In this document: positions 62,736-64,000 of the stretch, piece by piece
Numbering within the stretch: the stretch's first letter is position 1
Layout: each line of letters begins with the position of its first letter
Notes under the pieces: generated by a model
Databases searched by the model: none
Told to the model about the DNA's origin: nothing
Seen by the model: the letters and a program-made list of their open reading frames with translations, nothing else
Made by a program: the position numbers and the translations under genes
Source: Ahrensia marina
Lineage (GTDB): Bacteria > Pseudomonadota > Alphaproteobacteria > Rhizobiales > Rhizobiaceae
Assembly (NCBI RefSeq): GCF_001293565.1
Contig: NZ_JXMU01000005.1
Span: forward strand, 1 to 64,000
Direction of reading: 5' to 3'
DNA: 64,000 nucleotides

Positions 62736-63638
62736 TCAGGCGGCGGCCGACAACTGGTCGCCTGCGATACGGTAAGAGATTGCCTCTGCGATATGAATGC
62801 GGCCGATGCAGTCGCTATCGTCAAGATCTGCCAATGTGCGCGCTACCTTTAATATCCGGTGATAGGCACGCGCAGAAAACTTCATCTTATCAGCTGCGTC
62901 CGCAAGCAGATGTGTACTGCCGTCATCCATTTGTGCGACATCTTCAATAAGCGCTGTCGGGCAATGTGCGTTCATTGTGATGTCTTGCTGGCCTAAAGCG
63001 GCATATCGCTCGGATTGCCGGACACGCGCACGGGCAACACGTTTGGCAACCGATGCACTCGCTTCTCCGGGTTTTGCACGGATCAAATCGCCGGGCGAAA
63101 CACTTGGCACCTCCACACGTAAATCAATACGGTCCATCAACGGACCCGAAATTCGCGCCTGATAATCGGTTTTGCACCGAGCACCGCGCGCGCAACTATG
63201 GCCCGGCTCACCCGCCATACCGCAACGGCACGGGTTCATGGCCGCAATGAGCTGTATTCTTGCAGGATATGTCACACGATGGTTGGCACGTGCGATCATA
63301 CATTCCCCCACCTCAAGCGGCTGCCTGAGACTATCGAGCACTTGCGGCGTAAATTCAGGAAACTCATCGAGAAAAAGTACGCCGTTATGCGCAAGTGAAA
63401 CCTCGCCTGGCCGCGCTTTAAAGCCTCCGCCGACCATAGCAGCCATTGAAGCCGAATGATGCGGCGCTCTAAAGGGCCGCCGGTCGGATAACTCGCCACC
63501 TGCCAATTCACCGGCAATTGAAGCGACCATCGACACATCCAAAAGCTCCCGCGGGCTAAGCGATGGTAAAATTGATGCTAATCGCTGTGCCAACATTGAT
63601 TTTCCCGATCCGGGCGGACCAACAAGAAGCATATTATG
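62736..63638 (-). pseudogene. comM: comM interrupted, C-terminal 300 codons
   Basis: This AAA+ Mg-chelatase-like protein (ComM/YifB), a helicase in natural transformation, is normally about 510 residues. The remaining part begins HNMLLVGPPGSGKSMLAQRL, exactly at the Walker A motif, and continues with Walker B (NGVLFLDEFPEF), a four-Cys loop (CRCGMAGEPGHSC, then ARC) and the C-terminal domain to a normal stop. The conserved AAAGGHN before Walker A reads SIVHN, and further upstream the frame is the antisense of a recombinase gene. So about 210 N-terminal residues are absent here, probably displaced to the far end of an inserted element. The ATG at 63632 gives an open frame but not a functional protein. 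Confidence 0.88.
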
Positions 63639-63672
63639 GACAATAGACCTACATTCAAATATTGTGCTCCAT
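63633..63672. mobile_element. Left junction of an element integrated in comM
   Basis: ComM coding identity ends at the His-Asn codons (63633-63638). Beyond 63639 the sequence no longer encodes the conserved Gly-Gly of the motif, and the recombinase starts at 63673. A small imperfect dyad GGACAATAGACC lies at 63638-63649. The crossover is therefore within a few bases of 63639. Only this end is in the window, so the core repeat cannot be fixed. Confidence 0.75.
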
Positions 63673-64000
63673 ATGAAAAGTTCTCCTTTACCCCGCGCTT
63701 ATTCTTACATTCGTTTTTCTACTCCTGATCAGATGAAAGGTGATAGTCTAAGAAGGCAAATTGAAGCCGCCGAAAGTTATGCAAGAACTCATGGGCTTCA
63801 CCTCGATGATCAATTGACATTTCAGGATTTGGGCGTCTCAGCTTTCCGCGGGGCGAATGTGGAGACCGGCCGCCTGGGGGACTTCTTGCAAGCAATCCGT
63901 TTCAAAGACATTGCGCCTGGCAGCTATCTTATAGTTGAAAGCCTAGACCGGCTAAGTCGCAGAACGCCCCGCAAAGCCGTTAGAATGCTAGAAGAAATAT
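63673..64000 (+). CDS. Serine recombinase/integrase, N-terminal part
   Basis: The gene runs off the window after 109 codons. The resolvase catalytic domain is clear: YSYIRFSTPDQ with the nucleophile Ser, then DSLRRQIEAAESYAR, a GVSAFRG loop and LIVESLDRLSRR with the Arg pair of the active site. A recombinase and zinc-ribbon C terminus cannot be seen. Its start lies 35 bases from the comM break and it reads into the element, the usual place of a large serine integrase. No clear Shine-Dalgarno; a GTG 9 bases upstream is an alternative start. Confidence 0.92.
   Translation, partial: MKSSPLPRAYSYIRFSTPDQMKGDSLRRQIEAAESYARTHGLHLDDQLTFQDLGVSAFRGANVETGRLGDFLQAIRFKDIAPGSYLIVESLDRLSRRTPRKAVRMLEEI

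Follow-up and report, generated by a model that had tools for sequence, protein, structure and literature searches.

A 9,443-bp element encoding a large serine recombinase (LSR) is, with very little doubt, integrated in comM at a CT dinucleotide of codon 214, and this is the best explanation of the locus as a whole. The split gene, its empty site in related genomes and the crossover core shared by both junctions are evident from the anatomy of the locus, and catalysis of an attP x attB exchange by the LSR may be presumed from the class of the enzyme. The window, i.e. the whole stretch of 64,000 nucleotides that was analyzed (G000:C44:1-64000), lies on a contig of 204,743 bp in a genome of 3.44 Mb and 65 contigs. 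The features at and around the break are listed below, with codons in congener numbering.

62736 to 63632, minus strand: C-terminal half of comM (YifB-family Mg chelatase-like AAA ATPase), codons 213-510
63628 to 63629, minus strand: inferred crossover dinucleotide CT, codon 214 bases 1-2; partner copy at G000:C44:73071-73072
63630 to 63649, minus strand: element half of the attachment site, with the GGTC arm at 63646-63649, 16 bases off the core
63664 to 64000, plus strand: 5' part of the LSR gene within the window (Resolvase, Recombinase and zinc beta-ribbon domains)
G000:C44:63664-65202, plus strand: full LSR gene, 512 aa from GTG or 509 aa from ATG at 63673
G000:C44:73061-73711, minus strand, outside the window and reached by contig extension: N-terminal half of comM, ending in AAAGGH

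Anatomy of the interrupted comM locus

The comM frame is cut just before Walker A (GPPGSGKS), the first codons of the C-terminal half standing immediately ahead of this motif and the crossover CT three codons ahead of it. Close to the cut a serine recombinase frame starts at 63664 (GTG) or 63673 (ATG) on the plus strand and reads away from comM. Both observations agree with the earlier note on this DNA, which had further taken the GGH motif and about 210 N-terminal residues to be lost. These are in fact displaced: on rightward extension the N-terminal comM codons ending in AAAGGH appear on the same contig, 9.4 kb to the right of the C-terminal half. The element that separates the two halves spans 9,443 bp between C44:63628/9 and 73071/2 and has a GC content of 46.7%, with 52.1% and 51.1% in its flanks.

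When the flanks are joined at the core, they give 510 codons and a stop, with no inner stop and no gaps, at 94.1% identity to the comM of the congener G002. In both G002 and a further congener, G001, comM is a single uninterrupted frame, which represents the unoccupied site, and no relative was seen whose comM ends naturally at the codon-214 break. The element is bounded by the two halves of its target gene, and the 2-base core CT is common to both junctions, as is characteristic of an LSR-integrated element. Chance is a poor explanation of this arrangement because the split frame rejoins gap-free without an inner stop and a like split near a related LSR recurs in 59 of 80 named loci. The LSR domains, the core and the flank join together bear out the proposal of the earlier note that a serine-recombinase element sits at the Walker A boundary of comM, having arrived by a route distinct from the Tn7-like one of AbaR.

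The element would have entered comM through LSR-catalyzed attP x attB recombination at the CT of codon 214, the enzyme probably recognizing attP by its GGTC...GACC arms and taking the neighboring comM codons for attB. Such integration would part the N-terminal domain and the pre-P-loop strand from Walker A, and precise excision, judging by the joined flanks, would restore comM exactly.

The large serine recombinase

The LSR matches PF00239, PF07508 and PF13408, all over the cut-off, which is the domain set of a large serine recombinase. In an alignment of seven LSR members R14 and S16, which we take to be the catalytic residues, are invariant. Among solved structures, the SPbeta integrase YokA comes closest in sequence (E 7.6e-9). 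A comparison with 50,697 phage records returned 76 matches, all below 60% identity (the best among the matches listed at about 31%), and no close phage relative of the LSR was found among these records.

Crossover core and attachment-site arms

The core was analyzed in the 26 loci that hold both junctions, comprising 25 named loci (from the best 80 of 291 relatives) and that of the window. Within a locus the core dinucleotide is the same at both junctions in 25 of 26 cases, the exception being L092. At codon 214 base 1, 16.2 matches of 26 were expected by permutation of partners and none of 20,000 permutations reached 25; this permutation ignores the kinship of one genome's halves, and in other columns the same-locus excess is at most 0.20 vs 0.35 at codon 214 base 1. 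At codon 211 base 3 the same-locus agreement is 0.65 vs a crossed agreement of 0.45. Base 2 of codon 214 is T in nearly all junctions and adds little. Across all junctions, every one of the 51 C junctions has CT or TT as its core, and so do 33 of the 35 N junctions.

On the element side GGTC stands before the core and GACC after it, at offsets of mostly 16 or 17 and sometimes 18 bases. The two offsets are equal (16/16, 17/17 or 18/18) in 21 of the 22 loci with both arms, including 16/16 in the window element, and L056 with 16/17 is the exception. Both arms are absent in 4 of the 26 two-junction loci (L066, L081, L097 and L100), and an exact GGTC/GACC arm is absent within 6-29 bases in 13 of 51 C junctions and 8 of 35 N junctions. 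Junction identity and the symmetric GGTC/GACC arms are two agreeing tests, and they place the crossover at the CT of codon 214. The resulting attP arm rule, GGTC - 16-18 bases - core - 16-18 bases - GACC, is possibly new. A built-in restart codon for the C-half was considered and set aside: an in-frame ATG, GTG or TTG between the last stop and codon 216 occurs in 46 of 51 C-halves, but this is an uncontrolled count and the att stretch itself is rich in such codons.

At the DNA level, selection of a conserved motif is only weakly favored: the core-centered 42-bp window ranks 146th of 496 for conservation across 25 intact comM genes. A choice of site governed by exceptional DNA conservation finds no support in this rank.

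Gene content of the element

Of the frames between the comM halves, eight larger, non-overlapping ORFs on the plus strand were scanned. Beyond the LSR gene, the cargo is as follows.

C44:65269-66504, plus strand: McrB-N and NO-VEIN-C protein
C44:66892-67452, plus strand: small serine resolvase
C44:67531-68166, plus strand: weakly GNAT-like protein (E 0.036, below the cut-off)
C44:68261-69535, plus strand: phrog_4756 protein of 424 aa, likely PolA-like
C44:69656-70339, plus strand: weakly HNH-like protein (E 5e-4)
C44:70458-71699, plus strand, outside the window: DzbA (PADLOC)
C44:71712-72941, plus strand, outside the window: DzbB (PADLOC)

DzbA and DzbB occur together and form a predicted Dazbog defence pair, matching the PADLOC Dazbog models at E 5.6e-127 (profile 2-392 of 393) and E 7.9e-61 (profile 10-338 of 341) respectively. 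In Pfam the sole match of DzbA is to GmrSD_N (DUF262 type), below the cut-off. Dazbog resistance is abolished when the DUF262 gene is mutated or deleted, according to passages of a review (PMC10952713).

The phrog_4756 protein was modeled with AlphaFold2 from seven sequences at a mean pLDDT of 76, and Foldseek matched the model to DNA polymerase I structures (best E 6.9e-7, probability 1.00, TM-scores of about 0.3). Searched by sequence against solved structures, the same protein had a single match, which was meaningless (E 0.57). At TM-scores of this size, a PolA-like polymerase is a likely assignment for the protein and not a proven one. The PolA-like and zinc-motif proteins adjoin each other (G000:C44:68261-70339) and are paired in the reverse order in the Ahrensia element L059:15713-17679. 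This pair may act as a replication set, and the cargo could possibly hold one made up of the PolA-like polymerase, the zinc-motif protein and the resolvase. No helicase match was found among the eight ORFs.

With reference to PHROGs, none of the eight ORFs is a phage structural gene; at E <= 1e-3 the matches fall into integrase, invertase, transposase, DNA-binding, HNH and unknown classes only, and the resolvase has one lysis-class match at E 0.088. Pfam and NCBIfam revealed no relaxase or conjugation gene of the ICE/IME kind among the same ORFs. The prophage and ICE readings of the element were ruled out on the eight ORFs scanned. These ORFs likewise hold no match to the Tns transposition genes of Tn7-like AbaR/Tn6022, nor to the tyrosine recombinase that accompanies TnsF in Tsy. 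No recombination directionality factor was recognized in the element.

Related recombinases and their comM targets

When the seven-LSR alignment was used for a scan, 335 pattern matches and 291 relatives emerged; the named loci are the best 80 of these relatives. A comM split near codon 214 lies close to the LSR in 59 of these 80, with the LSR by the C-half in 40 loci and by the N-half in 18; the remaining locus, L066, was assigned by hand, its comM alignment extending 84 bases into the LSR match. The comM alignments of the 18 N-halves end at residues 212-219, and those of the C-halves start at 210-214 in 34 of 40 and at 190-201 in the other 6, where the alignment continues into the element. 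The LSR match starts at most 150 bases from the comM break in 52 of 58 loci and 247 to 1,901 bases from it in L064, L065, L059, L074, L100 and L097. All 59 loci contributed at least one junction to the core analysis.

Seven other loci among the best 80 of 291 (L071, L095, L102, L108, L110, L115 and L118) have the LSR by only the first 27-35 or so codons of comM; in L118 the comM start is 4.4 kb from the LSR. For six of the seven, the remainder of comM is located elsewhere in the genome and matches from codon 29-30; for L115, solely codons 285-505 were found elsewhere. A second comM site near codon 30-34 is possibly new. This second target site lies at the edge of the most DNA-conserved comM windows.

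The other 14 of the best 80 showed no tie to comM within the stored flanks. Seven of these were looked up, and comM matches were present in all seven genomes, some of them whole or nearly so. Among the untied loci, the comM of L124 is in three pieces, that of L098 in two frames and that of L126 runs from residue 31.

A tree was built from 79 LSR sequences, i.e. 81 minus the fragments L096 and L099. The window LSR groups with those of Rhizobium, Mesorhizobium, Ensifer (two) and Aquamicrobium at a support of 100/99, and all five lie near the C-half. On this tree, LSRs located at the same side of comM tend somewhat to cluster, yet the side often switches, the well-supported branches forcing at least 11 changes of the N label. 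Such frequent switching requires that the attachment site flip with respect to the integrase gene.

The 26 elements bounded on both sides have a median length of 7.5 kb, a sample biased to small elements by flanks of at most 10 kb. The LSR is present in 26 of 26, and BLASTP clustering places a PolA-like protein in 3 and a zinc-motif protein in 3. A resolvase of 140-260 aa is found in at least 14 of the 26 bounded comM elements, the window's included, and this count is a lower bound as ORF picking hid one in L048. The DzbA, DzbB, McrB-N/NO-VEIN and GNAT-like proteins were without a match at E 1e-5 when the stored DNA of the 80 loci was searched, from which it follows that the cargo varies and that the Dazbog pair is peculiar to the window's element within this sample.

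Turning to relatives of the host, a comM match was obtained in 58 of 61 genomes. A comM half that ends near codon 214 by an LSR occurs in 6 of the 58 (the host's own genome, G004, G010, G024, G025 and G041), and among these six a second half was seen only for the own genome and for G004, on a different contig in the latter. The comM of G044 is cut by a contig end, and the other 49 of the 58 genomes have one comM frame of at least 453 aa. In L130 (G040:C1:192000-203000) the comM parts are adjacent without an insert, with a frame break at about codon 218, near the LSR site; in L129 (G014:C22:86000-96000) the frame breaks without an insert at about codons 235-240. Sequencing error is possible in both. 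L139 (G055:C1:522001-542000) carries a related LSR of 38.6% identity outside comM, with a small-resolvase match about 7 kb away, and the comM of this genome is intact although the related LSR is present.

Alternative explanations

Tn7-like (AbaR/Tn6022) and tyrosine-recombinase (Tsy) elements both insert in comM, as passages of PMC10293859 describe, and an insertion of either kind with the LSR as a mere passenger would also split the gene. Such an origin is exceedingly improbable here, as the eight ORFs lack any Tns or tyrosine-recombinase match, the LSR is located at the junction itself and relatives of it are repeatedly found at the comM break; moreover, in the passages cited Tn6022 and Tsy are reported at Walker B, whereas the present break is at codon 214, before Walker A. 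An assembly artefact or a chimeric contig might be suspected in a draft genome of 65 contigs, but it is scarcely credible given that both comM halves are on a single contig, that the flanks join gap-free and that both halves occur within one locus in 25 other named loci.

The present state of the element admits somewhat more latitude. It could be a fixed relic, now immobile, that has left comM a plain pseudogene, and a recently fixed element would appear nearly identical to an active one. We consider this unlikely, though it carries some weight: the LSR reads through at full length and retains all three domains, both comM halves remain open and jointly reach 94% identity to the congener, and core and arms are present on both sides. 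The element could also be a regulated switch whose excision restores comM under competence or stress, as has been reported for the comK prophages of Listeria. Excision would indeed be exact at the sequence level, but neither a directionality factor nor a regulator was identified in the element, and a switch of this sort is quite improbable.

Functional implications

The comM gene aids the uptake of foreign DNA. With the LSR element integrated at codon 214, Walker A is cut off from the N-terminal domain, so that loss of ComM activity is to be expected. ComM should consequently be inactive, and transformation with heterologous DNA should be reduced. In Acinetobacter, transformation went up when AbaR was cured and comM restored, and comM deletion gave a transformation level like that of the island-bearing strain, as described in passages of PMC7508600. 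The host has ComEC and DprA matches, genes which alone are no proof of transformability.

The reports of comM as a target of Tn7-like, tyrosine and serine elements are in line with a published proposal in which mobile DNA benefits from a block to transformation. The window element is a clean example: both junctions and an empty-site relative are available, the 2-bp core is mapped, and the cargo includes a predicted defence pair. The attP arm rule provides a testable handle on a large LSR family. A broader joint claim would be that this LSR clade consists of dedicated, small, self-replicating non-phage satellites whose integrases have evolved to two comM sites (codon 214 and about 30-34), which shut off transformation to keep the cell from curing them through recombination, compensate with Dazbog-like defence and restore comM exactly on leaving; taken jointly, we hold this to be rather doubtful.

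Comparison with known systems

LSR insertion into comM is an already known kind of event, and the view in the earlier note of a different, new route to this gene has to be given up, LSR targeting of the gene having been published as frequent in the passages cited from PMC10083194 and PMC9203015. In the relevant portions of Durrant et al. 2022 (PMC10083194), the magnesium chelatase/ATP-dependent protease gene is the target of 12.4% of predicted site-specific LSRs, and competence genes are enriched among LSR targets. Those elements resemble the present one in having a serine integrase and the same kind of target gene, the split gene here matching YifB-family Mg chelatase-like AAA ATPase models and being equated with their target by name. 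The same portions give no codon or core for the gene, which are codon 214 and CT in the present case.

According to passages of PMC9203015, the recombinase sr1WO of phage WO uses the magnesium chelatase gene of Wolbachia, with portions of the gene on either side. It is likened to the window LSR by description, as a large serine recombinase at an alphaproteobacterial magnesium chelatase gene, and not by LSR sequence or codon. The sr1WO element, as those passages present it, is a prophage, whereas the window element has no phage structural gene in the eight ORFs scanned.

Searches of an open-licence library, none of them specific to these features, turned up no paper that names the core at codon 214, the GGTC/GACC arms or the second comM site, and the supplementary tables of Durrant et al. 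may hold such sites. A literature search for yifB with serine integrase found no paper. The main text of a 2026 integrase paper (PMC12884075) has no occurrence of comM, chelatase or yifB, and the passages searched in a rhizobial hot-spot paper (PMC11476347) and a Vibrio element paper (PMC9345347) contain nothing on comM.

The SCC elements with the CcPol-MP primase, as passages of PMC10061031 portray them, likewise combine an LSR with an A-family polymerase-like protein, which is only a likely assignment here. Those elements sit at rlmH, whereas the window element is in comM with no helicase match in its eight ORFs, so that the SCC-like combination of an A-family polymerase-SSB pair and a helicase at rlmH is not seen.

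The AbaR/Tn6022 and Tsy elements share the target gene and inactivate comM, as the cited parts of PMC7508600, PMC10293859 and PMC11472951 indicate, and resistance or defence cargo on Acinetobacter comM elements is described in the same three sources. In passages of PMC11472951, the comM of Acinetobacter is interrupted by varied elements, often with defence systems; Dazbog cargo in a comM element is possibly new. Tn6022 and Tsy target the Walker B region of comM in the passages cited from PMC10293859. Those elements, on the accounts cited, rely on Tn7-like or tyrosine chemistry guided to Walker B by TnsF, whereas the element described here uses serine chemistry and lies before Walker A.
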